DNA of 40,035 nt from a virus (IMGVR_UViG_3300006947_002595:1-40035); one strand, 5' to 3'. Numbered from the stretch's first letter, positions 19,981-35,465 are shown. The notes: generated from the letters alone by a model not told the origin. Translations and numbers: made by a program.

Positions 19981-19991
19981 GGGAATATAAA

Positions 19992-20396
19992 TTGACACCA
20001 GTACTTTACATACTAATGAGAAATGACCTTGCTTCGCTTAATGCGGGCAAGGCGATGGCACAGGCTAGCCATGCTAGTAATGCATTTCTCTTCAACTTAG
20101 TAAATGATCCATCAAAAGCTGACTATAAGGATTTAGTTGAAGAATGGATATCCACTACAACACAAGGCTTTGGCACTGTTTTTGTTCTAGCAGTTAATGA
20201 AGAACAATTAAATAAGGCTATTGATCTTGCAGATGCAGATGGATTTGCAACTAACATAATTACTGATCCAACTTACCCAATCAAAGACGGTGACGTTACG
20301 CACCATTTACCACTAGACACTTGTGGATATATATTTGGTGATCATGAAGATCCAATGTTGAGATTGATAACACAGGATTTAGAATTATATCCATAA
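19992..20396 (+). CDS. Pth2-type peptidyl-tRNA hydrolase
   Basis: About 134 residues. The N-terminal block LYILMRNDLASLNAGKAMAQ, then ASHAS, reproduces the Pth2 signature (R-x-D-L, G-K, A-Q, H-A), and the VNEEQLNKAIDLADADGFATNIITD segment matches the second family block. Pth2 frees tRNAs from peptidyl-tRNAs dropped by stalled ribosomes; it is usual in archaea and eukaryotes, while most bacteria rely on an unrelated Pth. In this phage it complements tmRNA-based rescue. I choose the TTG at 19992, behind AAGGGA, instead of the ATG at 19953 inside the previous gene. It ends just before another promoter. Confidence 0.85.
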   Translation: MTPVLYILMRNDLASLNAGKAMAQASHASNAFLFNLVNDPSKADYKDLVEEWISTTTQGFGTVFVLAVNEEQLNKAIDLADADGFATNIITDPTYPIKDGDVTHHLPLDTCGYIFGDHEDPMLRLITQDLELYP

Positions 20397-20402
20397 TAGG
20401 AC

Positions 20403-20431
20403 TTGACAACCAAAGCGTCTTACCCTATACT
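20403..20431 (+). promoter_or_regulatory. Sigma70-type promoter, degenerate dyad
   Basis: TTGACA, spacer ACCAAAGCGTCTTACCC, TATACT. Only the right half of the dyad (GTCTTAC) is kept. It drives the HD hydrolase gene. Confidence 0.75.
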
Positions 20432-20463
20432 GTATATATAACTTAATTAAAAAGGAAAACGAT

Positions 20464-20973
20464 ATGACACTCATTCAAAAAGCAGATCTTTTCGCAAGTG
20501 TAGCACATGCCGCAATTGGACAGAAACGCAAGTACAGCAATGATGACTATATCGTTCATCCTCGTAGAGTAGCAAAAACTGTTGAAACTGTTGGCGGCTC
20601 AGATGAGATGATTGCCGCGGCTTTGCTACATGATGTTATTGAAGATACAGCAATTACAGGTCCAATGATAATGTCAGCATTTGGAGCGACTGTATTTAAA
20701 CTTGTATTGGAGTTAACTGACACTAGTAAGCCAGAAGATGGAAATCGTGCAGTACGCAAAGGAATTGACGCCACACGCTTAGGGTTTGCAAGCAAAGATG
20801 CACAGATAATTAAACTTGCAGACTTAATTGATAACAGTAATGATATTGAAGCAAATGATCCAAGTTTCTCAAAAGTGTTTCTTAAAGAAAAAGCACACTT
20901 ACTTGATGTAATGGATAAGGTTCATGATCATGAGTTATATGTAACCGCACGTAAAAACTTAGGAGGTAAATAG
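20464..20973 (+). CDS. HD-domain protein, MESH1/SpoT-like alarmone hydrolase
   Basis: A 169-residue single-domain HD phosphohydrolase of the RelA/SpoT hydrolase group: an AHAAIGQKRKYSNDDYIVHPRRV start, the HD-E-D block ALLHDVIEDT (H56, D57, E60, D61), then KLADLIDNSNDI. There is no synthetase, TGS or ACT domain, so it has the size of a small alarmone hydrolase (SAH/MESH1). Such enzymes remove the 3' pyrophosphate of (p)ppGpp and may act on NADPH or related nucleotides. The likely effect is to relieve the stringent response in a starved marine host (inference). It is the first gene of an operon that leads into clpP. Confidence 0.88.
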   Translation: MTLIQKADLFASVAHAAIGQKRKYSNDDYIVHPRRVAKTVETVGGSDEMIAAALLHDVIEDTAITGPMIMSAFGATVFKLVLELTDTSKPEDGNRAVRKGIDATRLGFASKDAQIIKLADLIDNSNDIEANDPSFSKVFLKEKAHLLDVMDKVHDHELYVTARKNLGGK

Positions 20974-20977
20974 TTAT

Positions 20978-21178
20978 ATGGAATTAGATTTTATCATAGT
21001 AATGGGTGTGTTCACAATGTGTTGTGCATACTTTAACTGGAAAAGTGGATACCGTAATGGTGTAGCCGAAGGCATGGAACTAACATTAAAGATGTTAGAA
21101 GACGGCGGATACATTAAGATCGTAAATGATGAGATTACAGCAATTGCGAAAGTCTCTGAAATACGAAATGACGCATAA
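20978..21178 (+). CDS. Small membrane protein, 66 aa
   Basis: Residues 4-19 (DFIIVMGVFTMCCAYF) form one membrane segment. The remaining part is amphipathic with a GYRNGVAEGMELTLKMLEDGGYIKI stretch. No family recognised. It begins four bases after the HD hydrolase and overlaps the next gene by 11 bases. Confidence 0.7.
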   Translation: MELDFIIVMGVFTMCCAYFNWKSGYRNGVAEGMELTLKMLEDGGYIKIVNDEITAIAKVSEIRNDA

Positions 21179-22001
21179 TTTATTCACATACGAAACACTT
21201 GATGAGTTTCAGCAACAAGGTAAATGGCCTATTGCTGATTCTCTACTACTTTCTACGAAATACAAAGACAGATGGGAAATAGCAGAACGTTTATTTGATG
21301 ATGTTAATGAAGACTTCTTTATTAGACTTAACAAACAAGACGAATACAGTATAACAAAGTCTGTAGACCCAGAAATTCCACACAAGAGTTATTCCTTTCA
21401 TCAATCAGGATCAGTGTTCAGTTACGACAACGACTTTATGGCAGGCCCAACAGACTGGGCATTAGATACACAGCACCCTAAAGAAGTAGTAGAACGTAGT
21501 AAGGTTTACATATACGATTGGACAGCAGATAATGTTAAAGAAAGTTCTCCAGAGTTTGATTACTTTGTAGAGATGCATAAAGATTTTAAACCAGTACTAG
21601 ATCATTATTTAAATGAGTGCTATTCAGACCAACAAGAATTAATAGAAAAAACTCTTTACAAATTAATGATAATACGTTATACTAATCCTAGTGCTACTAA
21701 ACACAACTTAGTAGAACATCGCAAATGGAATACAGAACGATTTGGAGATGGACACTTTGATGAAACATTAGGAGGTTTGCACTTAGGTGAAAATTATTCT
21801 GAATTTACAGCAAGAAATGAAACAACAAACGAATGGGAAATTATTACTGAATTAACTGAAGATAAGAAAATGTGGATGCATGGAGAACATGCACAACAAA
21901 GTGGCTGGATTCCTACAACACATGGAATGTCACATAATCCACAACCAGATCTTAAGGACCGTTACAGTATAATTTTTGATTTACAAGCAAGATACAAATA
22001 G
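21168..22001 (+). CDS. Hypothetical protein, possible 2OG-oxygenase-like
   Basis: A 277-residue protein starting at an ATG inside the previous gene; an ATG at 21126 is 14 codons earlier but gives an unrelated N-terminus in an overlapped region. The region [17 protein letters not shown] (H196-x-D198) followed by later His-rich motifs (MHGEH, THGMSH) could provide an Fe(II) site of the HxD...H type, and it ends in a [12 protein letters not shown] strand as in the other oxygenase-like products. The call is weak. clpP follows after eight bases with a GGAG site. Confidence 0.5.
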
Positions 22002-22009
22002 GAGATATT

Positions 22010-22597
22010 ATGATAATACCAACAGTAATTGAATCAACAGGACGCGGCGAACGTGCATACGATATTTACAGTCGTTTGCTTAAAGATCGAATTGTAATGC
22101 TTAATGGCGAAGTTAACGACCATACTGCAAATTTAGTAGTTGCACAGATGTTATTTTTAGAATCACAAAATAGTAGTGAAGATATTAATTTCTATATTAA
22201 TAGCCCAGGTGGTGCAGTTACAGCAGGCCTAGGAATTTACGATACTATGCAGTTTATTAAATCTCCAGTAAGTACAATTGTTATGGGCCAAGCATGTAGC
22301 ATGGGTTCGTTCCTTGCTAACGCAGGCGAGCCAGGTAAGCGTTTAGTATTACCTAACAGTCGTACAATGATTCATCAGCCAAGCGGTGGTGCAGGTGGAC
22401 AAGCAACTGATATGCAGATTCAAGTAAATGAGATTATTAAGATAAAAGAAAGTCTTACACGCATTTATGAGAAGCATAATAGTAAGGGCAAAACATACGA
22501 AGTACTTGCAGAAGCTATGGAGCGTGATAACTTTATGTCCGCACAAGAAGCTGTAGACTTTGGTTTGGCCGATAAAGTTATAGAACGTAAAGTTTAA
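22010..22597 (+). CDS. clpP: ClpP protease subunit
   Basis: A 195-residue serine protease subunit with S97 (GQACSMGS) and H122 ([11 protein letters not shown]) at the E. coli positions and the catalytic Asp in MERDNF (D173). The oligomerisation block [16 protein letters not shown] and the N-terminal axial-loop region are present, and there is no long propeptide. ClpP forms a tetradecameric chamber that degrades proteins fed by ClpX or ClpA. ClpP-like proteases occur in phages as prohead proteases, but here a real ClpX with an IGF loop and ClpS are encoded nearby, which points to regulated proteolysis. No head genes are adjacent. A small kinase-like gene follows. Confidence 0.96.
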
Positions 22598-22610
22598 GAT
22601 AAATAATAGT

Positions 22611-23303
22611 ATGAAGATACACGACATACTAGAATCAGAACAAATAGACGAAGGTCCAAACGACCCACATATATTCAAGGCAGTATTCCTAGCCGGCGGA
22701 CCCGGCAGTGGAAAGAGCTTTGTTGCAAACGATATGTTGGGAGGTTCGGGACTAAAGACTATTAATAGCGATATGGTCTATGAATACATGGCTCAAAAGA
22801 AACAATTGGATTTAAGAGATCCTGAGCAAGTAGCTAGTCCAGATGGTCAAGAGATACGAAACCATTCAAAAACGTTAGCTGATCGAAGAAAGAACATCTA
22901 TCTAGACGGCCGCCTTGGAATTATTATAGACGGAACAGGAAAAGATGTGCAAAAGGTTGCAGACAGTATTAAGGTAATGAAAGACCTAGGATACGAGTCT
23001 ATGATGATATTTGTTAATACAAGTCTAGAAATAGCACAGGAGCGTAACGACAAAAGGCAACGTAGATTGCCAACAGAGCTCGTTGCGAATATGTGGAGTA
23101 CTGTACAAAATAATATAATGAAATTTCAACAATTATTTGGTGCGAGTGATTTCCATGTTGTTGACAACAGTGGAGGATTAGAAGATCCGTCAAGAAAAGA
23201 GAATTTTGGAAAAGTTTATAAAGAAATCCAAAAGTTTCTTAACAGACCACCAGCGTCAAGGATAGCGAAACAATGGTTAACTGACGTTAGAAGTAAACCA
23301 TAG
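22611..23303 (+). CDS. P-loop kinase-like protein (zeta-toxin / polynucleotide-kinase type)
   Basis: A 230-residue P-loop NTPase with Walker A GGPGSGKS near residues 30-37, a following INSD block (Asp acceptor or metal site), the RLGIIIDGTGKD strand and a basic lid region QERNDKRQRRLP. This order is typical of zeta-toxin and AAA_33-type kinases that phosphorylate small molecules or nucleic acid ends. The substrate is unknown. The N-terminal 20 residues (IHDILESEQIDEG) are an extension often seen in marine phage proteins. A late-promoter-like GATAAATA lies only five bases before the ATG. Confidence 0.8.
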   Translation: MKIHDILESEQIDEGPNDPHIFKAVFLAGGPGSGKSFVANDMLGGSGLKTINSDMVYEYMAQKKQLDLRDPEQVASPDGQEIRNHSKTLADRRKNIYLDGRLGIIIDGTGKDVQKVADSIKVMKDLGYESMMIFVNTSLEIAQERNDKRQRRLPTELVANMWSTVQNNIMKFQQLFGASDFHVVDNSGGLEDPSRKENFGKVYKEIQKFLNRPPASRIAKQWLTDVRSKP

Positions 23304-23325
23304 TTATAAGTTCCCTCGATACTAA

Positions 23326-23333
23326 AATAAATA
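23326..23333 (+). promoter_or_regulatory. Candidate T4-type late promoter box
   Basis: AATAAATA followed by CTAA, in the 77-base gap before the nuclease gene, 47 bases before its ATG. It resembles TATAAATACTA of T4 late promoters. Confidence 0.4.
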
Positions 23334-23380
23334 CTAAGCAGTTCAACATAGAATTGCTTATCAATATGTGAAAGAATTAT

Positions 23381-23734
23381 ATGTATACTTACAGTGCGAA
23401 ATTAATAAGAGTAATTAACGGTGACACATTGGACCTAGATATTGACTTAGGTTTCGATCTGTCTACAAAGCAACGATTAAAACTCCATGGTGTAAATGCA
23501 CCCGATTCTAGATCAATGGATATCGATATCAAACAAAAAGGTATTGATGCTAAACAAAGACTAATTGATCTATTGACTAAAGAGTTTAAAGTAACGACTA
23601 TCCTCAATAAGCGAGGAAAGTATGGAAGGATCTTAGGATTCATTTACGTAATTGATTCTAAGGGTAATGAAGTTAACGTAGGTGAAGTATTGGTCGAAGA
23701 AGGCCATGCGATACACTACAACACAGGAAAATAG
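23381..23734 (+). CDS. SNase-like nuclease, cytoplasmic
   Basis: A 117-residue protein of the thermonuclease fold without a signal peptide: KLIRVINGDTLDLDIDLGF, RLKLHGVNAPDSRS and KYGRILGFIYV. The catalytic Glu that follows the DxP motif in staphylococcal nuclease (DTPE) is Asp here (NAPDS), and the preceding Asp is Asn, so catalysis may be altered. It is probably intracellular, unlike the exported SNase at 8582. It ends one base before the membrane protein gene. Confidence 0.82.
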   Translation: MYTYSAKLIRVINGDTLDLDIDLGFDLSTKQRLKLHGVNAPDSRSMDIDIKQKGIDAKQRLIDLLTKEFKVTTILNKRGKYGRILGFIYVIDSKGNEVNVGEVLVEEGHAIHYNTGK

Positions 23735-23735
23735 T

Positions 23736-25421
23736 ATGAGGTATTTTGGTTATTGGACAATTTTAGTTGCACTATCAATAAGTGCTGTGGCGGCCTACTA
23801 TAGCATAGTTGGTCTTGTGGCTATCTTTGCCAGTGCCATTATACCGATTATTATTATGGGTACCGTATTAGAAATCGGTAAGTTAACCTCAGCAGTGTGG
23901 TTACACTTGCATTGGCGAGAAGCTCCCATGCTTATTAAGACGTATCTCACTGTAGCCGTGCTTATGCTAATGCTTATTACAAGCATGGGTATATTTGGCT
24001 TTTTATCTAAAGCACACATAGAACAAACTAGCCGGGCTACTGAGAACGTTGCTCAAATAGAACGCATTGAAGAAAGTATCGTAAGACAAAAGTTTATTAT
24101 TACTAAAGCAGATACTAGCATAGACAAACTTGAAAATACAGACAACAATAAAGACGAAGGTATTCAAGCAAAAATCAATGTAGAACAAGAAAGAATTAAT
24201 TCGGCATACGCAGGTGTGCAACCATCAATTGATGAACAGAATGCAATTATTACAGATCAAAAAAATAGCTTAGAAAAACAAACAGCACCGTTTACTAGAC
24301 AGTTAGAAGAGATTGATAATCAACTAGCGTCAATAGAAACGTATATTGCTAATGAAGATATTAAAAAATTACAAGGACTAATAGGCGCATCACAGGATGG
24401 ACGCTATGGAACTAAAACTGCTCAAGCAGTGAATGAATATAGAGCTGAAAAAGAAAAGAACAGACGCATGGTTTTATATCAGCTAAATAATATTAGAAGC
24501 CAGGAAGATACAGTTACTAAGGAAGCTAGAATAGAGATTAAAAGACTTAGAGCCTTTGCAGAACAACAAATTGCAGACTCTAACGCATTAATAACTAGAC
24601 TTAGAGCAAACTTGGGACAAGGACAGTTAGTAGATAGTACAGACCAGATTAATGCACAACGTACTATTATTACTACAGCAGAAGATGTCCTAGATACGTT
24701 ATACACCGAGAAGTTTACATTAGAGGGCGATAGCAGATTATTAGAAGCAGAAGTAGGCCCTGTAAAGTATATTGCTGAATTAATATGGGGTGCAGATCCT
24801 ACTCGAAACATGTTGGACGATGCTGTTCGATTTGTTATATTAATGTTAGTACTAGTATTTGACCCACTAGCAATTGTGCTTGTAATATCAGGCATAACAC
24901 TAGTAGAAAGGTTTCCACGTAAGAAGAAACCAAAGGTAATATATGAAGAAAAAGAACCAATTTCTGAAAACATTGAAACAGACGATAGCGTCGAAGAAAA
25001 TGTTGAAGTCATTGAAGAAACAAACGAAGATCAATCCAGTGTTAGCGTTCAAGATGAGATACTTGAAGAAGACGTAATACACACGGACGGCGAAGGCAAA
25101 GAGTACACAGTCGATGCACTTACAGGCAAGCGCCAATATCTTTTAGATGAATCACAGTATAGTTTAAACGACACAGCAAGATCAACTTTAAAAAAGGAAA
25201 AAAAAGAACTGGTAAATAAAATAGTAGCAGAGATGCGAAGCACAGGCAGTTGGCCCGGAGCAGGTTACTTATCAGATGATGGCGTAATCAAGAAAAGAAT
25301 AGAAGATATATTTGCAGATGACGCATCGTTAGAGTTGAAAGAGTTAATGGCTAAGGCAGACTCAGCAGTGTTAAATGAAGTATACAAAGAAATCATAAAA
25401 GATACCAGAGATGAAAATTGA
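23736..25421 (+). CDS. Coiled-coil membrane protein with peptidoglycan-binding-like motif
   Basis: A 561-residue protein. Three to four hydrophobic segments in residues 5-90 (ILVALSISAVAAYYSIVGLV, IIPIIIMGTVL, TVAVLMLMLITSMGIFGFL) are followed by a long coiled coil (about 95-350) and another membrane segment near 366-390 (ILMLVLVFDPLAIVLVISG). Inside the coil, residues about 208-235 read KKLQGLIGASQDGRYGTKT..., which resembles the PG_binding_1 motif of cell-wall proteins. The C-terminal 170 residues are acidic and cytoplasmic. T4-like marine phages carry related proteins of unknown role. The start is the ATG at 23736, just after the nuclease stop, because the ATG at 23682 lies inside that gene. 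Confidence 0.78.
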   Translation: MRYFGYWTILVALSISAVAAYYSIVGLVAIFASAIIPIIIMGTVLEIGKLTSAVWLHLHWREAPMLIKTYLTVAVLMLMLITSMGIFGFLSKAHIEQTSRATENVAQIERIEESIVRQKFIITKADTSIDKLENTDNNKDEGIQAKINVEQERINSAYAGVQPSIDEQNAIITDQKNSLEKQTAPFTRQLEEIDNQLASIETYIANEDIKKLQGLIGASQDGRYGTKTAQAVNEYRAEKEKNRRMVLYQLNNIRSQEDTVTKEARIEIKRLRAFAEQQIADSNALITRLRANLGQGQLVDSTDQINAQRTIITTAEDVLDTLYTEKFTLEGDSRLLEAEVGPVKYIAELIWGADPTRNMLDDAVRFVILMLVLVFDPLAIVLVISGITLVERFPRKKKPKVIYEEKEPISENIETDDSVEENVEVIEETNEDQSSVSVQDEILEEDVIHTDGEGKEYTVDALTGKRQYLLDESQYSLNDTARSTLKKEKKELVNKIVAEMRSTGSWPGAGYLSDDGVIKKRIEDIFADDASLELKELMAKADSAVLNEVYKEIIKDTRDEN

Positions 25422-25860
25422 TAACGATAGTTACACAGTAACACCCCCAGATTTAATGATGACGGAACATGGGATTGGAATTCTAATCTCCTCAACTAAT
25501 CACGAACTAGTAGATGACATTAAAGCAGTATTTGAACAATACATTGCTACAAGTGTTGTGTTTATGGTTCAAAATAATAAAACAAATGGAGGAACATTAC
25601 CTTGGATGTGGAATGTTTCTAAAACATGTGACTTCATGATAATTGATGTTGACACGTGTGCATGGGAAGATATTATGGCAGCACTTTTGAAATCAAAAGA
25701 AGAACCAAATACCGTCCTATTTTATAGTGATAAGTACAAGAGAAGGGAGACAGTTAAATTGATTAATGCAACAGGAACAAACTTAGTGGTTAGGTCAATA
25801 AAAGATATAACAGCCTATATCCAAGTACAAATGAGCACAGAGTATCTAAATGAAATCTAG
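25411..25860 (+). CDS. Hypothetical protein, 149 aa
   Basis: A compact alpha/beta protein (GIGILISSTNHELVDDIKAVFEQYI, CDFMIIDVDTCAWEDIMAALL, TVLFYSDKYKRRETVKLINAT) with a response-regulator-like or Rossmann-type alternation of strands and helices, but without clear catalytic residues. It overlaps the genes on both sides by 11 bases, so it is translationally coupled to the membrane protein and to clpX. Unknown function; a role as a ClpX adaptor is possible only by position. Confidence 0.72.
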   Translation: MKIDNDSYTVTPPDLMMTEHGIGILISSTNHELVDDIKAVFEQYIATSVVFMVQNNKTNGGTLPWMWNVSKTCDFMIIDVDTCAWEDIMAALLKSKEEPNTVLFYSDKYKRRETVKLINATGTNLVVRSIKDITAYIQVQMSTEYLNEI

Positions 25861-27076
25861 TTCTTCGTTAGTTCAGTGCAATTTTTGTAGTAAAGATACA
25901 ACACAGGTAAAGAAGCTACTAGCAGGTGAAAACCATACGCATATATGTAGTGATTGTGTTGAGCTTTGTTATGGCATAATCAAGAACGAAACTGTTAAGA
26001 TAGAAAACGCTATTCAAAAGAAAACTAAAAACGTTATACCCACTCCCAAAGGAATACACAAGCACTTAGACAAGTATGTTATTAGCCAATCACATGCTAA
26101 GAAAACATTAAGTGTTGCAATGTATAATCATTATAAAAGAATTAGTAGTAAAACAAAATCAAGGTTACAAAAAAGCAACGTGCTTATTGCAGGTCCTACT
26201 GGAACTGGCAAAACATTAATGGCACAAACACTAGCTAGGTTTTTAGATGTTCCATTTGTAATTACAGATGCTACAGTTATCACAGAAAGCGGATATGCAG
26301 GTGATGACGCAGAAGTATTAATACATAAATTATTTGCCGCAGCAGATTACGATATTGACAGATGCCAACGTGGTATTATATATGTAGATGAAATTGATAA
26401 GAAAGCCAAGCGAAATGACTATGTTAGCTTGAGTAGAGACGTTTCTGGAGAAGGAGTCCAACAGAGCCTTTTAAAGCTCATGGAAGGTACTATAGTAGCG
26501 GTTCCGAACAAACCGACACATAACCCGGAGAAGGTCGAAATCGACACCACTAACATACTATTTGTAGTAGGTGGAGCCTTCGTTGGCCTACAAGATGTTG
26601 TGCTTGAACGACTCGGTAAAGCAAAGATAGGTTTTAACGACTCTAACGATGCCGCAATTAAAGACTGGCAAAGGCACTTACAAACACGTGACTTAGTAAA
26701 ATATGGATTAATACCTGAGTTTATAGGTAGACTTCCTAGTGTTAATGTGTTAAACTTATTAAGTAAGCAAGATTTAGTAGAAATATTGACAGAACCAACA
26801 GATAGTATTATTGATCAAATAAAAGATTTATTTTTACTTGACAAAATACAAATAGAGTTTACAATAAGTGCATTAGAAGAAGTTGCAACTGTTGCTATAA
26901 ACGAAGAAATGGGTGCTAGAGGTTTACGTAAGATTTTAGACGAAGCACTTTTAGACATCCAATATGAGTTACCTGAGATGTATGAACAAGGAGTTAGAAA
27001 AATTATTATTAACGAAAATGTAATACGCAATACCGGAAAACCCATAATTATTAAAGGCACAAACACAGTTGAATAA
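25850..27076 (+). CDS. clpX: ClpX ATPase / unfoldase subunit
   Basis: A 408-residue AAA+ protein aligning with ClpX from end to end. Zinc-binding C10, C13, C33 and C36; Walker A GPTGTGKT (115-122); Walker B IIYVDE (176-181); pore-2 block SRDVSGEGVQQ; ClpP-docking tripeptide IGF (260-262) in its loop; sensor II GARGLRK. Two substrate-contact loops differ from E. coli: pore-1 GYVG is GYAG (148-151), and the RKH loop, which reads the ssrA tag C-terminus, is KPTH (221-224). ClpX unfolds tagged proteins and feeds them to ClpP, whose gene lies 3.3 kb upstream. It overlaps infC by eight bases. Confidence 0.97.
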   Translation: MKSSSSLVQCNFCSKDTTQVKKLLAGENHTHICSDCVELCYGIIKNETVKIENAIQKKTKNVIPTPKGIHKHLDKYVISQSHAKKTLSVAMYNHYKRISSKTKSRLQKSNVLIAGPTGTGKTLMAQTLARFLDVPFVITDATVITESGYAGDDAEVLIHKLFAAADYDIDRCQRGIIYVDEIDKKAKRNDYVSLSRDVSGEGVQQSLLKLMEGTIVAVPNKPTHNPEKVEIDTTNILFVVGGAFVGLQDVVLERLGKAKIGFNDSNDAAIKDWQRHLQTRDLVKYGLIPEFIGRLPSVNVLNLLSKQDLVEILTEPTDSIIDQIKDLFLLDKIQIEFTISALEEVATVAINEEMGARGLRKILDEALLDIQYELPEMYEQGVRKIIINENVIRNTGKPIIIKGTNTVE

Positions 27077-27590
27077 AAGCAATTTTAAAAAGAGAGACAT
27101 CGGTCCTAAAGTAGTAGCAAATAACAGGATTAGGTGCAAGACAGTAAGAGTTTCCTTTCCAGATGGTGATAGTCAAATACTATCGATTGAGGACGCACAG
27201 AGGAGTGCATTAGAACTAGACTTAGATTTAGTGTTGATCACTGAAACAGCAGATCCACCAGTTTGTAAAATAACTGATCTAGCTAAGTTTATATACGCCT
27301 CTAAGCAAAAAGACAAGTTGGCTAAACGAAAGCAACGTGAAAGCGTTGTTGAGACAAAGGAAATACGTTTGGGAATTAACATCGATATAGGTGACATAAC
27401 TACCAAGGCTAAGCAAGCACGTAAATTCTTAGACAAAAACAACAAAGTTACGGTTACCATTATTCTTAAAGGTAGAGAGCGGGGGAAAAGCGATAGAGCT
27501 AAAGAACTGCTAAATACATTTGCTGACACTCTAGGTGTTGAATATGAAAATATAAGCATTCAGAATAATAGAGTGACTGGAAAGATATAA
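27069..27590 (+). CDS. infC: Translation initiation factor IF-3
   Basis: A 173-residue IF-3 with both domains: the N-domain (NNRIRCKTVRVSFPDGDSQILSIEDAQRSA, then DPPVCKITDLAKFIY), a Lys-rich linker (QKDKLAKRKQRES), and the C-domain beginning TKEIRLGINIDIGD with KARKFL-type and VTVTIILKGRERG blocks. It lacks the last few residues seen in many host IF-3s. IF-3 keeps ribosomal subunits apart and rejects wrong starts. No ATG is available near the start: translation most likely begins at the TTG inside the clpX stop region. Host infC genes also use poor start codons for self-control. The bS21 gene follows after six bases. Confidence 0.95.
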   Translation: MNKSNFKKRDIGPKVVANNRIRCKTVRVSFPDGDSQILSIEDAQRSALELDLDLVLITETADPPVCKITDLAKFIYASKQKDKLAKRKQRESVVETKEIRLGINIDIGDITTKAKQARKFLDKNNKVTVTIILKGRERGKSDRAKELLNTFADTLGVEYENISIQNNRVTGKI

Positions 27591-27596
27591 CAAAAT

Positions 27597-27833
27597 ATGT
27601 CAAAAAATAATCATAAAGATCAACGAGGCGGCGGTGGCCTAACAGTTGAAGTTAGAAACAATAATGTAGAACAAGCACTACGTAAGCTAAAGAAAATGAT
27701 AGCCAAAGACGGTATCATGCAAACAATACGTGACCGTAGTCATTTTGTAAGTAATACTGAGAAACGATTAAAAGCAAATGCCGCGGCAGCTGCCAGACAT
27801 CGTAGACGTATTAAGGAAAACAAGTACGAATAA
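27597..27833 (+). CDS. rpsU: Ribosomal protein bS21
   Basis: A 78-residue basic protein with the bS21 signature VEVRNNNVEQALRKLKKM, the RDRSHFVSNTEKRLK middle part and an Arg/Ala-rich end (AAAARHRRRIKEN). bS21 sits on the small subunit near the mRNA exit and affects initiation and Shine-Dalgarno recognition. Marine phages, including pelagiphages, are known to carry it. With the adjacent infC it makes a two-gene initiation module that could bias host ribosomes towards phage mRNAs. The N-terminal 14 residues (MSKNNHKDQRGGGG) are an unusual glycine-rich extension. Confidence 0.95.
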   Translation: MSKNNHKDQRGGGGLTVEVRNNNVEQALRKLKKMIAKDGIMQTIRDRSHFVSNTEKRLKANAAAAARHRRRIKENKYE

Positions 27834-27948: not shown

Positions 27949-28374
27949 ATGACAAGACTTACAACACTAAACCTACCAGACTTCTATAAAGCCACTATTG
28001 GTTTTGATAGAATGTTCGATGAGATGCAAAATGCATTTAATCCAACAACTACAGGCGGGTATCCACCCTACAATATCGTTAAAGTAAACGAAACAAGCTA
28101 TGCAATTAGTTTAGCAGTAGCTGGTTTTAATAAGAACGATATTAGCGTGGAGCAAGACGGTAACATGCTTACTATCAAAGCTGAAGATACTTCAGAAGAA
28201 GATGTTAAGGAATATCTACACAAGGGTATTGCAACTAGAAACTTTACAAGAGAATTTAGTTTAGCAGATTATGTAGATGTAACTGGAGCGAAACAAAATG
28301 ACGGAATTTTAGAAGTCACTTTGCAACAAAACATTCCAGATAACAAGAAACCACGTAATATTAAAATTGGATAA
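27949..28374 (+). CDS. Small heat-shock protein, Hsp20 family (IbpA-like)
   Basis: A 141-residue chaperone. After an N-terminal arm (DFYKATIGFDRMFDEMQNAF, similar to the IbpA start) comes the alpha-crystallin domain (PPYNIVKVNETSYAISLAVAGF, DISVEQDGNMLTIKAED, IATRNFTREFSLADYVDVTGAKQNDGILEVTL) and a short tail. The usual I-x-I tail motif appears as NIKIG. Hsp20 proteins hold unfolded proteins for refolding or degradation. T4-like cyanophages also encode Hsp20. In this window it lies between bS21 and ClpS, within the protein quality-control group. Confidence 0.95.
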   Translation: MTRLTTLNLPDFYKATIGFDRMFDEMQNAFNPTTTGGYPPYNIVKVNETSYAISLAVAGFNKNDISVEQDGNMLTIKAEDTSEEDVKEYLHKGIATRNFTREFSLADYVDVTGAKQNDGILEVTLQQNIPDNKKPRNIKIG

Positions 28375-28385
28375 CAGGTAAAACA

Positions 28386-28688
28386 ATGGCTCAAGCATCA
28401 CACGAAGACATAGCAGAAATGACAAGGTTAAAATCACCACCTAAATTTAACGTGATTCTAATGAATGATGAAGCTACGCCTCAAGAGTTCGTAGTTAATG
28501 TTTTAAGATCAATTTTTAATAGAACATCAGACGAAGCAGAGGCAGTGATGCTTGAAGTCCATAACAAGGGCAGAGGCATAGCTGGTACATACAGTTACGA
28601 AGTTGCTGAACAAAAATGCGTTGAAACGATTACTGACGCAAGGCGTAATAGCTACCCACTAGACGTCACATTAGAAAAAACAGAATAA
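28386..28688 (+). CDS. clpS: ClpS, N-end rule adaptor
   Basis: A 100-residue adaptor with all ClpS blocks: KFNVILMNDEATPQEFVVNVL, IFNRTSDEAEAVMLEVHNKGRGIAG and TYSYEVAEQKCVETI. The residues that line the N-degron pocket (ND in MNDE, M and H in VMLEVH) are present. ClpS normally delivers proteins with destabilising N-terminal residues to ClpA for ClpP. No ClpA gene is visible, so it would act with host ClpA or with the phage enzyme in a new way. It starts 11 bases after hsp20. Confidence 0.95.
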   Translation: MAQASHEDIAEMTRLKSPPKFNVILMNDEATPQEFVVNVLRSIFNRTSDEAEAVMLEVHNKGRGIAGTYSYEVAEQKCVETITDARRNSYPLDVTLEKTE

Positions 28689-28694
28689 AATTAA

Positions 28695-29264: not shown

Positions 29265-29265
29265 T

Positions 29266-29682
29266 ATGAAAGTTGGAATAACATTTAGTACATTTGATCT
29301 ACTCCATGCCGGACACATTGGCATGTTGAGGGAAGCGAAATCAAATTGCGATTATCTTATTGTGGGTTTACAAAGTGACCCTACAATTGATCGCCCAAAA
29401 ACAAAAAACAAACCCATACAAACAATGGTAGAGCGTTATGCACAACTTAATGCAATTAAGTTTATTGACGAAATTGTGCCATACCAAACAGAAGAAGATT
29501 TAGTGGATATACTAGAACTGTTTGAAATTGATGTACGGTTCCTTGGTGAAGAATATAAGGAAGATGAATTCAGCGGTAAAGACGTATGTCGTAAACGTGG
29601 AATTGACTTGTATTTTAATAAACGTGAACACAGGTTTAGCACGAGCGGCCTTAGAAAAAGAGTGTGTGATAATCAAAAATGA
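29266..29682 (+). CDS. Cytidylyltransferase-family nucleotidyltransferase (TagD-like)
   Basis: A 138-residue protein with the family HxGH motif in TFDLLHAGHIGML, the LIVGLQSDPTIDRPK block, and the closing STSGLRKRV motif (ISTT-R type). Such enzymes transfer CMP or AMP to phosphorylated polyols, cholines or sugars, as in glycerol-3-phosphate cytidylyltransferase. It starts one base after the GATase-like gene and overlaps a HAD phosphatase gene by four bases, suggesting a shared pathway that makes an activated small molecule. The substrate cannot be read from the sequence. Confidence 0.9.
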   Translation: MKVGITFSTFDLLHAGHIGMLREAKSNCDYLIVGLQSDPTIDRPKTKNKPIQTMVERYAQLNAIKFIDEIVPYQTEEDLVDILELFEIDVRFLGEEYKEDEFSGKDVCRKRGIDLYFNKREHRFSTSGLRKRVCDNQK

Positions 29683-30011
29683 AATATATAATTGATATAG
29701 ATGGTACTATTTGTAAAGAAGTTTTTCTTGCAGATGGTAAGAAAGACTATGCTAACCATATTCCATATATGGATCGTATTGCAAAAGTAAACAAACTACA
29801 TGAAGCAGGTCATACTATCAAGTACATGACTGCACGTGGAATCACTAGTGGAATAGATTATTTTAAACTAACAAATAATCAGCTAGTAGAATGGGGTGCA
29901 AAGTTTGATGAACTTGATGTAGGTAACAAACCCCATTACGATATATGGATTGATGACAAAGCATTTTGGAGTGAGAACTTCTTTAGAGAAACAGGTGAAA
30001 CATATGAGTAA
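29679..30011 (+). CDS. HAD-family phosphatase
   Basis: A 110-residue HAD phosphatase with motif I DIDGTI (D4, D6), a motif II region YMTARG (Thr), and motif III/IV near YDIWIDDKAF. It lacks a cap domain, as is typical of small capsule/phosphonate-type HAD proteins. Coupled to the cytidylyltransferase by an ATGA overlap and to the aldolase gene by an eight-base overlap. It probably dephosphorylates an intermediate of the same pathway. Confidence 0.87.
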   Translation: MKYIIDIDGTICKEVFLADGKKDYANHIPYMDRIAKVNKLHEAGHTIKYMTARGITSGIDYFKLTNNQLVEWGAKFDELDVGNKPHYDIWIDDKAFWSENFFRETGETYE

Positions 30012-30798
30012 ATTTATAGCCGCAATGGACCACAGTGGTGGAAGCACAGGCGGAGTACTAGAACGTTACGAACAAGATTATACAGAAGATAATAAAATGG
30101 ACCTTGTACATCAAATGCGTATGCGTATGGTTAATAGTCCAGACTTTAACAGTAATAATATTTGGGCCTCAATACTTTATAAAGATTCAGTTGAACGAGG
30201 TTTATCTATGATCCTACGTGCAAAAGGCATTGAACCATATCTTAAAATTGATAGTGGGTGTGAAGAAGATGGAACACTCAAACACTTTGATTTAGAAGAG
30301 ATGTGTAAGTATGCACTTGAAATGCAATGTAGTGGTACTAAGATGCGTAGCATTATTAAAAGCGAAGAGATGATTGATGCAGTACTTAAACAACAATTTG
30401 GTATGGCTGCATATATTAGTAACAAAGGCCTTATGCCAATTGTAGAACCAGAAATTCCAATTGATCATCCAATGAAGCGTTCGTTAGAGATTATGCTTTT
30501 TGAACAGTTAAACAATCATCTACAAACATTAGATGGTAAGTGTATTCTAAAACTTACACTACCTGATATTAAAGAACTCTATAAACCATTGACAGCACAT
30601 GAAAGTTGTAGTAGTATTGTAGCATTAAGTGGTGGATACACTACAGAAGAAGCATGCAAAAGACTAGCAAATAATCCTTCAATGGGTGCTAGCTTTAGTA
30701 GAGCATTAAGCGAGGGATTGTTCTATGGACAGACTGAGCCGGTATTTGACACACGAATAAGTGCAAATATTGATAACATTAAAAGGAGTTGTGAATGA
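30004..30798 (+). CDS. Class I fructose-bisphosphate aldolase
   Basis: A 264-residue protein matching bacterial class I FBP aldolases of the staphylococcal type: [17 protein letters not shown] at the start, [17 protein letters not shown], the Schiff-base lysine region [24 protein letters not shown] and [11 protein letters not shown]. It cleaves or forms fructose-1,6-bisphosphate by a Schiff base without metal. Aldolase in a phage could divert carbon to triose phosphates or feed the neighbouring nucleotidyltransferase pathway (inference). The ATG at 30004 is chosen because the conserved sequence begins there; an ATG at 29950 lies within the HAD gene. It overlaps guaC by ATGA. Confidence 0.93.
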
Positions 30799-31943
30799 GA
30801 ATCGAAACAGAACACAAGCTAGATTATAGCGATGTATTAATTAGACCAAAGCGTAGTACGTTAGGGTCGAGAAAAGACGTTGATTTACAACGTGGATTTA
30901 CATTTAGAAACTATTTGGGAGCAAGGCCTTTAAATGAACCAGAAGACTACAGCGGTATTCCTATTATGGCTTCTAACATGGATGGAGTTGGTACATTTGA
31001 AATGGCAGACACACTTGCTAAACAAAGTATCTTCACTTGCTTAGTTAAAACATACAGCGTAGAAGAACTTGTTGAATTCTTCAATACGGATAATGAGTCT
31101 CGCACAGATAATGTTGCTATTAGTATTGGCATCATGGAAAAGGATCAACAGAAATTTAGTGACGTATATGAACAAGTTGGTGCCCGTATCAAGTATGTTT
31201 GTATTGATGTAGCAAATGGATATAGTGAACGATTTAGTAACTTTGTTAGAAAGTTTAGAAAACAATATCCATACGTAGTAATTATTGCTGGTAATGTAGT
31301 AACAGGCGAAATGACAGAGGAGTTAATTCTTAATGGAGCAGACATTGTTAAAGTTGGAATCGGACCAGGTTCCGTGTGTACAACAAGAATCCAAACAGGT
31401 GTCGGATACCCACAGCTATCTGCAGTTATTGAATGTGCAGATGCGGCACATGGACTTGGTGGACATATTATCGCTGATGGGGGTTGCAATTGTCCTGGTG
31501 ACGTGGCTAAGGCATTCGCTGGCGGTGCAGATTTTGTAATGCTTGGCGGAATGCTAGCAGGACATGATGAAGGCGGTGGAAAAACTATTCTTAAACATTA
31601 TGAGACAAATGAACTTGTATATGAAATAGGTAGTCACTTGGATAAGCATACAAAGAAAATTGAAACAAAAGAGTTTGTAGCATTCTACGGAATGAGTTCA
31701 AATGCGGCAAACACAAAGCACTTTGGAGGATTGAAAGATTATAGATCAAGCGAAGGACGTGAAGTACTTGTTCCTTATCGTGGAACAGTAGAAAATACTA
31801 TACAAAATATATTAGGCGGAATACGTAGTACATGCACATACGCAGGTGCAAACCGTCTTAAATACCTAAATAAATGCACTACATTTATTATGGCTAACAA
31901 ACAGTACAACGCAGTATATGAAGCGACTACAACGAAGATTTAG
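30795..31943 (+). CDS. guaC: GMP reductase
   Basis: A 382-residue member of the IMPDH/GMPR family. The start [19 protein letters not shown] is GuaC-like, and the catalytic loop [20 protein letters not shown] contains the active-site Cys. [35 protein letters not shown] forms the phosphate-binding part. No CBS domain pair is present, which supports GMP reductase over IMP dehydrogenase. It deaminates GMP to IMP with NADPH, letting guanine from degraded host RNA flow to adenine nucleotides, useful for an AT-rich phage genome. It closes the metabolic operon. Confidence 0.93.
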
Positions 31944-32302
31944 CACTCTAAGACGCCGAATAAGTAGCCAGGCAAAGATTTAACAGAAGCACCTTAAAGG
32001 ACTATAGGCTAAAGGAAAAAGGTAGTCATAGGAGACAATATACACTCATGCACATACGGCATAACGAAAATGCTTTACGTGCATGAGTCTTTTTGTGGTC
32101 TATGTGATAAATAGAAGTGTTAAATAAGACAAGCGACCTCAGCTTTGAAAAAATGAGTGGCACTAGGGAAAGACCAGGGCATAACCCATGCCTTACAAGT
32201 GATGCTACAACTGTCAGGCATCGTGGTAACACCGGGAGAGACCGGAAAATTGAGACCGGATGCTTTCCCAAAAACATCCAAAACTTTTATTAGGAGACTA
32301 AA
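31944..32302 (+). ncRNA. Non-coding region with terminator and structured leader of the DUF1127 operon
   Basis: No convincing gene in 359 bases. The first 100 bases hold a short A/G-rich stretch; then comes a strong terminator (32044-32093). After it lies a GATAAATA box (32106) and about 150 bases that are richer in G and C than the surroundings: GGCAT-AACCC-ATGCC, a later GTCAGGCATC that could pair alternatively with ATGCC, and a direct repeat GAGACCGGA (two copies, nine bases apart) followed by ATGCTTTCCC. This looks like an RNA leader with two exclusive folds, ending at the TTAGGAG ribosome site of 32303. No known riboswitch class recognised. Confidence 0.4.
32044..32093 (+). terminator. 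Strong rho-independent terminator after guaC
   Basis: ACTCATGCAC and GTGCATGAGT form a perfect 10-bp outer stem, with inner GCAT/ATGC pairing, followed by CTTTTT. It ends the long plus-strand block that begins near 20403. Confidence 0.85.
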
Positions 32303-32530
32303 ATGACAACTCACTTTTTTAGTGGCTTGGCAGGAATCTTTGGTAAGCGCCGATGTGACTACCGTAGAGACCTCGAGAGTTACGCAAAGACGGAATATAA
32401 ACATGACTGGCGATTTGCTTATGATTATATGGTAGCTAATGAGGGCAGAGGCCCTTCAGCTTACGCACTACATCAAGAGTTAATTAAAGGAGCTGAAATG
32501 GCTCGTTTAGAAATGGATATAAAACGATGA
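32303..32530 (+). CDS. Small protein of the tandem MTT group, 75 aa (first)
   Basis: A 75-residue basic protein (MTTHFFSGLAGIFGKRRCDYRRDLESYAKTEY...), with a TTAGGAG site. Its arrangement with the two following genes, all starting MTT and joined by ATGA-type overlaps, suggests a tandem family of small regulators. It resembles DUF1127 proteins in size and placement, but not in the conserved C-terminal block. Confidence 0.7.
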   Translation: MTTHFFSGLAGIFGKRRCDYRRDLESYAKTEYKHDWRFAYDYMVANEGRGPSAYALHQELIKGAEMARLEMDIKR

Positions 32531-32745
32531 CAACACTAACAATTTATCAAACAACATGCAACGTATGCGAATACATAGCAGACAAGATTTCAAACGCTTG
32601 TAATAATATGATTAAAAGTTTTGAAGTAGTTGGAACAGCGAGAGCCGCTTCACAACTAGCAAGCATGGGTTATTACAAAGAAGCAGAAGCTCTTATGTTA
32701 CAACTCAAAGACATAAGAAAAGAATTAGAGGCCATTAAAAAATGA
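32527..32745 (+). CDS. Small protein of the tandem MTT group, 72 aa (second)
   Basis: A 72-residue helical protein. The N-terminus (MTTLTIYQTTCNVCEYIADKISN) is similar to that of the next gene (MTTLAETYCAFCDRIALTVNN), including the Cys-x-x-Cys spacing. The C-terminal half (AASQLASMGYYKEAEALMLQLKDI) could be a diverged DUF1127-type helix-turn. Overlaps both neighbours by four bases. Confidence 0.7.
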   Translation: MTTLTIYQTTCNVCEYIADKISNACNNMIKSFEVVGTARAASQLASMGYYKEAEALMLQLKDIRKELEAIKK

Positions 32746-32957
32746 CAACACTAGCAGAAACTTACTGTGCATTTTGCGATAGAATTGCACTTACCGTTAA
32801 CAACTTAATTAGTAAATGGGAAAATAGAGAAAGACCGTATAACAGAGATACATACAATGCTTTATCGAAGTTGTCAGATCATGACTTAAAGGATATTGGG
32901 TTATGCCGAGGCGATATCATGTTTATCGCTAAGGGTGGATCGATTTACCGTAAATAA
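32742..32957 (+). CDS. DUF1127 family protein
   Basis: A 71-residue protein whose C-terminus carries the DUF1127 signature: DTYNALSKLSDHDLKDIGLCRGDI. DUF1127 proteins are short, arginine-rich and common in alphaproteobacteria, where some have been linked to RNA turnover and phosphate or stress responses. In a phage this suggests a host-derived regulator. The CFxC-type N-terminal Cys pair (CAFC) is shared with the preceding gene. It is the last gene of the three-gene operon. Confidence 0.85.
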   Translation: MTTLAETYCAFCDRIALTVNNLISKWENRERPYNRDTYNALSKLSDHDLKDIGLCRGDIMFIAKGGSIYRK

Positions 32958-32962
32958 AAAAC

Positions 32963-33014
32963 CCTTGCTCAGATAACACTAGTTTTAATCGGCTAAATAG
33001 TTGTATGAGCAAGG
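32963..33014 (+). repeat. Inverted repeat spanning the start codon of the ligase-like gene
   Basis: CCTTGCTCA (32963-32971) is the exact complement of TGAGCAAGG (33006-33014), which overlaps the ATG at 33005. The loop is 34 bases. If transcribed from upstream, the pairing would hide the start codon. A GCTAAATA late-like box lies in the loop, so late transcripts from it would lack the left arm. Confidence 0.4.
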
Positions 33015-33976
33015 TACATCTTTTATCACAAATAATAGCTAATTTACAGCTACCTACAACTCAAGACGAGAAGATTGAGTTACTAACCACCTATAATAAA
33101 GAAATCATACTGAAACGCATTATAAGTATTGCGTATAATCCATGGATTGATCTTGGTATGACTAAGTTTAAGCCTAGACATACTGGTAAACAGTTTGGAA
33201 TGGGTATAGCTAGATTCTTACATATTCTAGATGATATTATAGATGAAAAATATTCACATAAAGAAAAAGAGTTTTCATGCAATATGGCACTTATGCATAT
33301 TGAACAAAATGATGCTAAACTCTTTACTAGCTTAATTACACAGTCATTAGATCTATGCTTAGATATTGAATCAATCAATACAGTTTGGCCTGGATTAATA
33401 ATGAACTATCCAATAAGCACTCCAGTTACTACAGACTATAAAGAATTTAAATTGTTTCCAGCATCAGTACAACCACTTAGCAGAGGCTTACGAGTCAATG
33501 TAATGGTTTACAATGATGTTGTATTCTATAAAGACAAGCTAGGTAATAATATACTAGGTTGGGAAATATATGACAAACAATTTATTAACCTAGCACAAGG
33601 TAACAATACAGTATTTGATGGGCATGCAGTAGTTGCAGAAGGCGTTAACGTTGTTGAAGTTGCAAACGATAAGGTACTAGAAGCAGAAGCAGAGAACATT
33701 AGATTCATGTTATGGGACGTTATACGTTATGATGGGTTTGTTAAAGGTGAAGACACACGCATGGGTTATAACTGGCGTTACAACGGTATTGAACATATGC
33801 AAATATTAGCCATAGACAAGAATCCTGCTCCTTGTTATGATTTAGTTCGTGCTGAATTAGTAGGTAGTCAAGAGCAATTAGCACTTACTGTGTCTAAATT
33901 CAGTGGATGTGTTATTAAGAGCTTAGATGGTATCTGGAAACACGGTCCAGATGAAACACAAGTTATTTGCGTCTAA
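33005..33976 (+). CDS. Degenerate T4 gp30-like DNA ligase, catalytic lysine lost (pseudo-enzyme)
   Basis: A 323-residue protein collinear with the first two-thirds of T4 DNA ligase: ILKRIISIAYNP near the start, HTGKQFGMG, SINTVWPGLI, then the motif I region FPASVQPLSRGLR. In T4 this reads LKADGAR with adenylated K159; here the Lys is Leu (L158) and the Asp is Arg (R160). Motif III DGE is DGH (205-207), the motif IIIa strand RFMLWDV is kept, motif IV EG is SG, and the protein stops at SLDGIWKHG, before motif V and the OB domain. It cannot be a normal ligase. The frame is intact, so a structural or DNA-binding role is likely. It overlaps the lipase gene tail to tail. Confidence 0.85.
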   Translation: MSKVHLLSQIIANLQLPTTQDEKIELLTTYNKEIILKRIISIAYNPWIDLGMTKFKPRHTGKQFGMGIARFLHILDDIIDEKYSHKEKEFSCNMALMHIEQNDAKLFTSLITQSLDLCLDIESINTVWPGLIMNYPISTPVTTDYKEFKLFPASVQPLSRGLRVNVMVYNDVVFYKDKLGNNILGWEIYDKQFINLAQGNNTVFDGHAVVAEGVNVVEVANDKVLEAEAENIRFMLWDVIRYDGFVKGEDTRMGYNWRYNGIEHMQILAIDKNPAPCYDLVRAELVGSQEQLALTVSKFSGCVIKSLDGIWKHGPDETQVICV

Positions 33977-34730
33977 GTATTTTCTTAAGGTAGTTAGCAC
34001 TCAAGTGATCATAAAAATTATCAAAGAACTGAAACTTACTCCAAGCCTTTAATCTTCCTTTTATTCTATCTCTCATTCTATGCAAAAAAGTTGTGTTAGT
34101 CTGTATATGATCAGTGTATGATATATAGAACAAATCACCTATGTGTTCATAGTAACCACCTGGTGGAACTTGTGGCACAATATCGTTGTTATTCACAAAA
34201 CGATAAGCATCTATTCCATCAAATTGCTTAGTCCATGCAAGTGTTCCTACTTTAGGGCATCCATATGTATAAAGAGATATATCCTTATTGTCTACATGAA
34301 TACGTGTAGCGGCTATAGTTGCCATTGCGGCACCTAAGCTATGTCCACATATTACAAACTTGCGTGATTTTATACTTTTACCTAGCCACTTAGTTAGTGC
34401 TGGCCAAAGTTTATCAAGTTCAGTTTTAAATCCACCATGTACATGTCCTACAGTTTCAGCACTACTTGGCCATGCTTTAACGTCTGCAAGTATGTCTCCG
34501 AATTGTGTTGGTTCAGTTCCTCTAAATGCAATTAATGTATACTTGGGAAATTTAATTCCGTAACATTGTGCAGAACCTTTAGAAAAGAACTTTATAGTGG
34601 AATATTTTATTTTATGTTTTATTAGATACGCTTCCATTGTATCAATATCGTTATATGCTTCTTCTACCATTTCCGCTGTTAATTCAACAACGGCCCAATC
34701 TATCTTATTTTTTGTTGTTTGATTTGGCAA
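33963..34730 (-). CDS. Lipase class 3 (alpha/beta hydrolase)
   Basis: A 255-residue hydrolase with the lipase-3 signs: FRGTEPTQFGDILADVKAW, HGGF, the nucleophile elbow CGHSLGAAMA (S131), YGCPKVG, then NNNDIVPQVPPG (catalytic Asp) and YDHLSANY (catalytic His). These enzymes release fatty acids from glycerolipids. No signal peptide is present, so it would act inside the cell or at lysis. It is the second gene of a minus-strand pair and overlaps the MscS-like gene by 26 bases; both could weaken the envelope late in infection (inference). Confidence 0.9.
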   Translation of the reverse strand: MPNQTTKNKIDWAVVELTAEMVEEAYNDIDTMEAYLIKHKIKYSTIKFFSKGSAQCYGIKFPKYTLIAFRGTEPTQFGDILADVKAWPSSAETVGHVHGGFKTELDKLWPALTKWLGKSIKSRKFVICGHSLGAAMATIAATRIHVDNKDISLYTYGCPKVGTLAWTKQFDGIDAYRFVNNNDIVPQVPPGGYYEHIGDLFYISYTDHIQTNTTFLHRMRDRIKGRLKAWSKFQFFDNFYDHLSANYLKKILRRK

Positions 34731-35037
34731 TTACTTTCTCCAGTCTCATCATAGGCATTCTTTTGTTTTCAACATATCTCCACACTTTACCGCGGCCGTT
34801 GTCAATTTCAAAAATAGTTTCTCGTAAACCAATGCTGATGATTGTTGCTTGTTCACCTTCAAGAAAAACTACATCTCCGGGTTCAAACCCAGGTTTCATT
34901 TTCCATCTTATACTTGCTACTATATCAGCAACTGCTTCTTTAAACCACATTGCTATTATACCACCAATTAGTACTATAATAAACGGCTTAAAGAATTCTT
35001 CTATGTCAATTGCGTATTTTAGTGCTTCTGTTTCCAT
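34705..35037 (-). CDS. Minimal MscS-like mechanosensitive channel domain protein
   Basis: A 110-residue protein with one membrane helix (about residues 16-36, FKPFIIVLIGGIIAMWFKEAV) followed by an MscS-type beta domain: FEPGDVVFLEGEQATIISIGLRETIFEI, then WRYVENKRM in place of the usual IPN. Normal MscS has three or more helices (about 280 residues), so only the pore-proximal helix and the beta domain remain. It may form a small channel, or dominate host MscS. First gene of the minus-strand pair; a CATAAATA box lies five bases upstream of its ATG. Confidence 0.8.
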   Translation of the reverse strand: METEALKYAIDIEEFFKPFIIVLIGGIIAMWFKEAVADIVASIRWKMKPGFEPGDVVFLEGEQATIISIGLRETIFEIDNGRGKVWRYVENKRMPMMRLEKVIAKSNNKK

Positions 35038-35042
35038 GCTTG

Positions 35043-35050
35043 TATTTATG
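35043..35050 (-). promoter_or_regulatory. Candidate T4-type late promoter box, minus strand
   Basis: On the minus strand this reads CATAAATA followed by CAAGC and the ATG at 35037. If active, the message would be nearly leaderless, which lowers confidence. Confidence 0.35.
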
Positions 35051-35097
35051 CGTAATTGAAATTAACATTTGTGTTAATTAAATATTTGATAAATAGG

Positions 35098-35126
35098 TTG
35101 ACAGAAGACACTACATAGTGTATAAA
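35098..35126 (+). promoter_or_regulatory. Sigma70-type promoter of the tmRNA gene
   Basis: TTGACA, a 17-base spacer (GAAGACACTACATAGTG) and TATAAA. A start site near 35133 is expected. It lacks the AAGA-TCTT dyad. A GATAAATA box (35088-35095) directly precedes the -35 element, so early and late transcription may both occur. Confidence 0.75.
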
Positions 35127-35132
35127 TATAAC

Positions 35133-35465
35133 TTGTAACGTTGAAACTTAATTGAACGCTAAACTGGACCTGGGGGCAGTACCCAGCAGCTCCACCATAA
35201 ACACACCGCCGTGTGGACCGAAAGACGGATTCTATAGGCGTTTCGGCATATGTCGCAGTAGAATATTACGGTGTGTTTTTGATGGGGCTGATATAGGATC
35301 GACAGGTAGACTAGATAAGTGGAGTTATCCCGATGTAAGCTGGGTTAACGCGAACAAACTTTATAATTGCAAACGCAAATTATGAGCCAGAAATGGCAAT
35401 AGCAGCCTAAATTAGGTATGTAGGGGTTTTGGTAACTTGGACCTGGCAACAGAATCAAGTTGCAA
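35133..35465 (+). ncRNA. ssrA: tmRNA, circularly permuted two-piece type
   Basis: The acceptor piece comes first: T-arm CTGGG-GGCAGTA-CCCAG (35170-35186), then CAGCTCC and encoded ACCA (35187-35197). An intervening hairpin (AAACACACCG/CGGTGTGTTT) leads to the second piece, which starts GGGGCTG (35284-35290) and pairs all seven bases with CAGCTCC, then GATATAGGATCGACAGG as in other tmRNAs. The resume frame GCA...TAA (35370-35411) encodes ANANYEPEMAIAA. The 3' end is not exact; the AACTTG/CAAGTT hairpin ends near 35461. Permuted ssrA genes are typical of alphaproteobacteria. It rescues stalled ribosomes and tags products for ClpXP; clpX and clpP are also in this window. Confidence 0.93.

Follow-up and report, generated by a model that had tools for sequence, protein, structure and literature searches.

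The virus sequence IMGVR_UViG_3300006947_002595 (the window) is a full IMG/VR record of 40,035 bases, itself a fragment of a virus genome, and it encodes ClpX, ClpP, ClpS and a transfer-messenger RNA (tmRNA). To judge from its sequence, the window ClpX belongs to a phage clade with an intact motor and a replaced tag-reading surface, and clpX and the tmRNA gene assort independently among related phages. The reading that we favour, and hold to be fairly probable, is a phage ClpA-ClpP-ClpS core accompanied by a retargeted ClpX and by an independent tmRNA that would use host SmpB. An earlier note on this DNA had instead joined eight elements into one working system of ribosome rescue, tRNA recycling and degradation. 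The window is a 40-kb piece of a large marine phage whose genome probably exceeds 200 kb, since its longest close relative, still unclosed, spans 204,772 bases. The eight elements are indeed present and pass their family tests, with the following scores against Pfam, NCBIfam and Rfam models:

19953..20396, + strand: Pth2 peptidyl-tRNA hydrolase (PF01981 37.9 bits, cut-off 23; phrog_1866)
22010..22597, + strand: ClpP (PF00574 264 bits, cut-off 20; PRK00277 300 bits, cut-off 249; alignments)
25850..27076, + strand: ClpX (NF003745 equivalog 500 bits, cut-off 359; zinc finger 51 bits, cut-off 27; AAA_2; motif tallies; tree)
27069..27590, + strand: IF-3, infC (TIGR00168 122.8 bits, cut-off 60; IF3_N 68, IF3_C 65)
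27597..27833, + strand: bS21, rpsU (TIGR00030 55 bits, cut-off 29; Pfam S21 52.6, cut-off 27)
27949..28374, + strand: Hsp20 small heat-shock chaperone, IbpA-like (PF00011 69.5 bits, cut-off 20.8; phrog_432)
28386..28688, + strand: ClpS (PF02617 96 bits, cut-off 23; alignments)
35135..35464, + strand: permuted two-piece alpha-type tmRNA (RF04321 105.9 bits, cut-off 47; RF01849 98.7 bits, cut-off 50, E 6e-26)

A ClpX with rebuilt entry loops

ClpX of Escherichia coli binds the ssrA tag through Y153, V154, T199, V202, R228 and H230, and mutating these residues strongly raises the KM for ssrA substrates (PMC7652416). The window ClpX retains the C4 zinc finger, Walker A and B motifs, arginine finger and sensor 2, and the IGF loop that docks on ClpP is found both here and in the listed common phage variants; the Walker motifs and IGF tripeptide had been read correctly in the earlier note. 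Its pore-1 loop reads GYAG, pore 2 has a serine at T199, and VPNKPTHNPE stands in place of the RKH loop.

A first set of 61 loci, in which clpX is present by construction, came from a scan of viral contigs for matches to the window's ClpX. Throughout the clade (50/50 sequences) V154 is replaced by alanine, turning GYVG into GYAG, T199 is replaced by serine, R228 is lost and H230 is not conserved. The RKH loop is usually exchanged for a VPNK...PE loop, shorter by three residues; Y153 and V202 are unchanged. The canonical ssrA-reading residues are found in 78/78 bacterial ClpX proteins, gathered through a ClpP search and including those of two alphaproteobacterial metagenome-assembled genomes, and in all seven phage ClpX from our scan that branch more deeply. 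The remodelled proteins form a single branch of the tree with 100/100 support. By analogy with the E. coli mutants, ClpX of this clade should bind ssrA tags poorly.

Could the loops simply have decayed? We rejected this explanation, as dN/dS is mostly below 0.2 and the catalytic motifs are invariant; most of the block's gene pairs give pairwise values of about 0.07-0.2, indicating purifying selection. The remodelled clade appears new, Clp proteins and tmRNA in jumbo phages being already known. A text search of the literature, with coverage mostly outside subscription journals, found no paper on phage-encoded ClpX.

A separately promoted tmRNA

The window tmRNA, placed by ARAGORN at 35105-35501, combines an alanine-type tRNA domain (G3-U70, ACCA) with a tag frame:

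35098..35126, + strand: tmRNA promoter, sigma-70-type TTGACA-N17-TATAAA (kept in relatives)
35159..35197, + strand: 3' half of the tRNA-like domain, ending in CAGCUCCACCA (ARAGORN layout)
35284..35314, + strand: 5' half of the tRNA-like domain (ARAGORN layout)
35369..35410, + strand: tag reading frame ANANYEPEMAIAA, then stop (sequence; homologous 13-residue tags)

The acceptor strand of the 3' half pairs with GGGGCUG at 35284-35290, keeping G3-U70; among relatives this pair is constant and the inner acceptor pairs vary with compensation. ARAGORN shortens the window tag to ANYEPEMAIAA. However, the tags of relatives have 13 residues (ANDNYSPEMALAA, ANANYEPEMALAA) and move the resume codon upstream by two codons; ANANYEPEMAIAA, the full frame proposed from the sequence, is therefore the right one. 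Every tag examined terminates in A[LIM]AA, the C-terminal degron being kept.

TTGACA and TATAAA or TATCAT, with a spacer of 16-17 nucleotides, lie ahead of the window tmRNA and of that in 22/22 relatives examined, whereas such promoters are only sporadic ahead of the Clp-block genes. A T4-type late promoter (TATAAATA) was considered and rejected: the same bases are the -10 element of the conserved promoter. The motif TATAAATA is no commoner in the window than expected. In most relatives the tmRNA follows clpX by 9-16 kb, but some have it 13.5 kb upstream, and in the deeper clade it precedes clpX by 5.5-6 kb. These observations point to a tmRNA that is transcribed on its own, from a dedicated promoter, and whose place in the genome is not fixed. 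We found no SmpB in any of 37 related records, which are fragments, by a search that was positive in 10 of 14 control genomes; host SmpB could serve.

Two other genes are seen beside the tmRNA. A Phage_OMP beta-barrel gene (35509-36093, PF24653) follows it immediately, likewise in many relatives, and in several relatives the tmRNA is directly preceded by a homologue of the NifU/IscU-type iron-sulfur scaffold that is recognised by sequence at 5870-6283 in the window.

Independent assortment of tmRNA and clpX

The order clpP, kinase, nuclease, membrane protein, 149-aa protein, clpX, infC, rpsU, hsp20, clpS is kept in nearly all 61 loci, with IF-3, Hsp20, S21 or the kinase individually absent from some. 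Taken alone, this ClpX-anchored set suggested an obligate block. We rejected this interpretation with a second set of 79 loci, anchored on an IMP dehydrogenase/GMP reductase gene (GuaC) chosen to avoid ClpX anchoring, which shows clpX to be an optional insertion: 11 loci have clpX and 68 lack it within the available stretch. All records of this set are fragments, and gene absences are therefore provisional. In the clpX-less loci, the membrane protein and the 149-aa protein continue directly into infC or rpsU.

The tmRNA is found in 22 of the 68 clpX-less loci and in 4 of the 11 clpX loci, the other 7 having none in the available stretch. Among the 16 Clp-block relatives whose records extend at least 30.5 kb past clpX, 13 have a tmRNA. 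Obligate co-occurrence is not observed, and the two genes assort independently.

Pth2 is present in the window, in an open reading frame that begins at 19953 or later, but it stands outside the conserved module: no homologue was found in the 61 related loci or in the 204-kb relative (G025), which leaves its assignment to one common system without support. It scores under the NCBIfam equivalog cut-off (31 versus 126). Independent carriage, which the earlier note had named as refuting its reading, is thus observed for tmRNA and clpX and for Pth2, but not for clpX-infC-rpsU-hsp20-clpS within the clade.

ClpP, ClpS and a ClpA beyond the window

The window ClpP lacks a propeptide, starting at the mature N-terminus (MIIPTVIE...), and alignments confirm the complete Ser-His-Asp triad noted earlier. 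Two types of ClpP handle occur in the clade (L002-L051), one with IHQPSGG and the other with IHRVSSGT and about ten additional residues. ClpS retains the N-degron pocket residues matching E. coli N34, D35 and H66 in alignments. Its gatekeeper M40 is replaced by Q in the window's subclade only, a change that might alter the choice of N-degron.

ClpS is an adaptor for ClpA and not for ClpX. Searching 37 records, we found full-length ClpA-like proteins encoded 19-30 kb downstream of clpX in relatives, beyond the window. They occur in 15 of the 16 long relatives, so ClpS has its usual partner. In 14 ClpA sequences both Walker motifs are present, the D1 pore residues are identical and the D2 pore reads GYVG; the docking loop is IGF in nearly all alignable members. 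These proteins align with E. coli ClpA along its length, including an intact N-domain, but score under the NCBIfam ClpA equivalog cut-off, so that 'ClpA-like' is the strict name. From the relatives, the phage protease set is ClpA, ClpX, ClpP and ClpS.

Among 27 records of the GuaC set that were searched, clpX was found in 4 and ClpP in 13, and five clpX-less records encode ClpA-like proteins 40-48% identical to the ClpA of the 204-kb relative. Because clpX-less relatives carry ClpA, ClpP and ClpS, the wider phage set is ClpA, ClpP and ClpS, with clpX as an addition, the fragmentary state of the records making its absences provisional.

Neighbouring genes

Two of the genes ahead of clpX deserve mention:

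23682..25421, + strand: conserved membrane protein of 579 aa, ahead of the block (synteny)
25411..25860, + strand: 149-aa alpha/beta protein overlapping the clpX start (AlphaFold pLDDT 80)

The membrane protein, with a long coiled-coil-like middle, is syntenic in nearly all relatives, clpX-bearing or clpX-less. The 149-aa protein, in which D79, D81, C83 and D87 are invariant, accompanies clpX in 48/48 covered loci with remodelled ClpX versus 0/7 with canonical ClpX. Its model has a weak likeness to receiver domains (best E 1e-3), and RssB is a ClpX adaptor bearing such a domain (PMC7226468). We nonetheless rejected a role as dedicated ClpX adaptor: 42 of 50 second-set homologues are at loci without clpX, and among viral structures it is most similar to a nucleoside deoxyribosyltransferase-like protein (E 7e-7).

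Elsewhere in the window, an HD-domain protein (20464-20973) matches the hydrolase region of RelA/SpoT (partial hit to TIGR00691, E 1e-19) and is a possible alarmone hydrolase. A class-I fructose-bisphosphate aldolase-like gene (29950-30798) occurs, among the 61 loci, only in the window and in an identical fragment (L058).

Relation to known phages

The presence of multiple Clp proteins, Hsp20, Pth2, IF-3 or bS21 has been described for jumbo phages (PMC6102473, PMC7824862, PMC11242549). In Atu_ph07 of Agrobacterium, AP-J-162 and Phosso of Sinorhizobium, clpX adjoins infC and is followed by hsp20 and clpS in the same order as in the window. These phages also share ClpP and several Clp proteins with it, and Atu_ph07 has an archaeal-type Pth2 (PMC6102473, PMC11242549). 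AP-J-162 has a tmRNA like the window, whereas Atu_ph07 has none (PMC11242549). However, their block is broken up by other genes, and their ClpX, about 44% identical, keeps GYVG and the RK motif. Pseudomonas phage PA5oct has clpX-rpsU-...-hsp20-clpS in one row with ClpP nearby, but the row lacks IF-3 and its distant ClpX keeps GYVG though RKH is lost. Bacillus phage G, with adjacent clpP and clpX, and Prevotella phage Lak-B2 combine ClpX and tmRNA in one phage, as in the window. Their ClpX loops, however, are canonical, and Lak-B2 encodes SmpB, of which we found none in the window's clade.

Permuted alpha-type tmRNA is also known from marine phages, namely the Methylophilales phage Melnitz and pelagimyophages (PMC9004378); unlike the window, Melnitz, with a genome of about 141 kb, has no ClpX and a reported glutamine riboswitch control. 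Around bS21 of huge phages, Hsp20 and Clp proteases are already recorded within ten genes (PMC9723584), as are tmRNA and SmpB in huge phages (PMC7162821); the passages concerned do not treat ClpX specificity or the tmRNA-ClpX relationship. We also noted that infC adjoins clpS in the Rak2-like phages 121Q, GAP32 and Kaldavass, and that Vibrio phage 2.275.O (among L221-L224) has infC-rpsU-ClpS-like. Acinetobacter phage MD-2021a and several other 'phage' matches were dropped as precedents, as they look like bacterial DNA (tig-clpP-clpX).

Proposed mechanism and alternative readings

In the favoured reading, a large marine phage, probably of Alphaproteobacteria-like hosts, would encode its own Clp protease complement. 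ClpP would be the peptidase, ClpA with ClpS the N-degron unfoldase, and ClpX a second unfoldase, predicted still to hydrolyse ATP and to dock on ClpP. Because the ClpX entry loops are rebuilt, poor ssrA recognition and the degradation of another substrate set are expected. Hsp20 would be a holding chaperone, and bS21 and IF-3, which share the transcribed block, probably work on the ribosomes of the host. The tmRNA, expressed from its own promoter, would rescue ribosomes with host SmpB; its A[LIM]AA tags would be handled by ClpXP or ClpAP of the host or by ClpAP of the phage, and phage ClpX would not be their main destination. We could not name the window's host: the best alphaproteobacterial tmRNA matches span the conserved tRNA core only, and the nearest bacterial ClpP proteins are at most 65% identical, none from a close host.

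We further propose, more tentatively and rating it slightly below an even chance, that a ClpXP with new degron specificity evolved in this marine phage lineage. Three ssrA-reading elements would have changed jointly on a single branch and become fixed afterwards, the phage tmRNA keeping its canonical tag; ClpX would thereby be shielded from tagged waste and reserved for other substrates, perhaps proteins of the host, with the tags left to ClpAP.

Several points weigh against the favoured reading, which is drawn from sequence comparison. T199S by itself raises the KM of E. coli ClpX only about 4-fold (PMC7652416), and in the literature consulted on ClpX we found V154F reported, but no effect of V154A. 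Since the zinc domain is retained, host SspB-alpha could still deliver ssrA-tagged proteins to the phage ClpX. The bacterial comparison set is mostly gamma- and betaproteobacterial, with only the two alphaproteobacterial genomes mentioned above, and the loop change is one event on one branch. Lastly, the window ends ahead of the expected clpA position, the ClpA partner being found in relatives.

Are these genes a coordinated set at all? They might be loose auxiliary genes, each topping up host machinery during host expression shutdown and sharing no target. This seems to us unlikely, although tmRNA, clpX, infC and Pth2 assort independently and, as the earlier note also said, single members are found in many other phages (PMC7824862, PMC9723584). 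It leaves unexplained the order clpX-infC-rpsU-hsp20-clpS, fixed in the clade and related to that of PA5oct, Phosso and Atu_ph07, as well as the full set of peptidase, two unfoldases and adaptor, and a directional loop change confined to ClpX.

The integrated system, in which stalled proteins are tagged by the phage tmRNA and degraded by phage ClpXP with the help of ClpS, Hsp20 and Pth2, tRNAs being recycled, we judge improbable. Part of it stands: a proteostasis set exists, is syntenic and under purifying selection, and is enlarged by ClpA. The elements do lie within 15.5 kb, and both the frequency of tmRNA in the long Clp-block relatives and the degron retained in the tags would suit it. However, the ClpX sequence, altered at V154, T199, R228 and H230, and the independent assortment contradict its central link, that of a tag-making RNA coupled to a tag-reading protease, and leave the single pathway unsupported. 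Nor does it accord with a separate tmRNA promoter of variable position, the failure to find SmpB in the 37 records, a Pth2 that is not conserved, or the established service of ClpS to ClpA. A role of ClpP and ClpX in virion maturation, after the manner of ClpP-type head proteases, is very improbable: PHROGs does put ClpP near head-maturation protease families, and other phages have prohead protease and capsid genes near bS21 (PMC9723584), but the window ClpP passes the general Clp cut-off (300 versus 249) and misses that of the head-protease model (107 versus 120), its partner ClpX retains the IGF docking loop, and the window annotation shows no capsid gene.

Implications

Since tmRNA and clpX assort independently here, their co-location within one window is weak evidence for a pathway. 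The more interesting point is the phage clade itself, with its seemingly intact ClpX motor and replaced tag-reading surface. If the loop changes act as the E. coli mutants predict, these phages offer a natural experiment in the retargeting of an AAA+ protease, with about 50 related ClpX proteins in which rebuilt entry loops are combined with intact motors, and other phages whose ClpX is canonical alongside them. One could then test directly which degrons a phage protease favours in infection, and whether phages keep ribosome rescue apart from targeted degradation.

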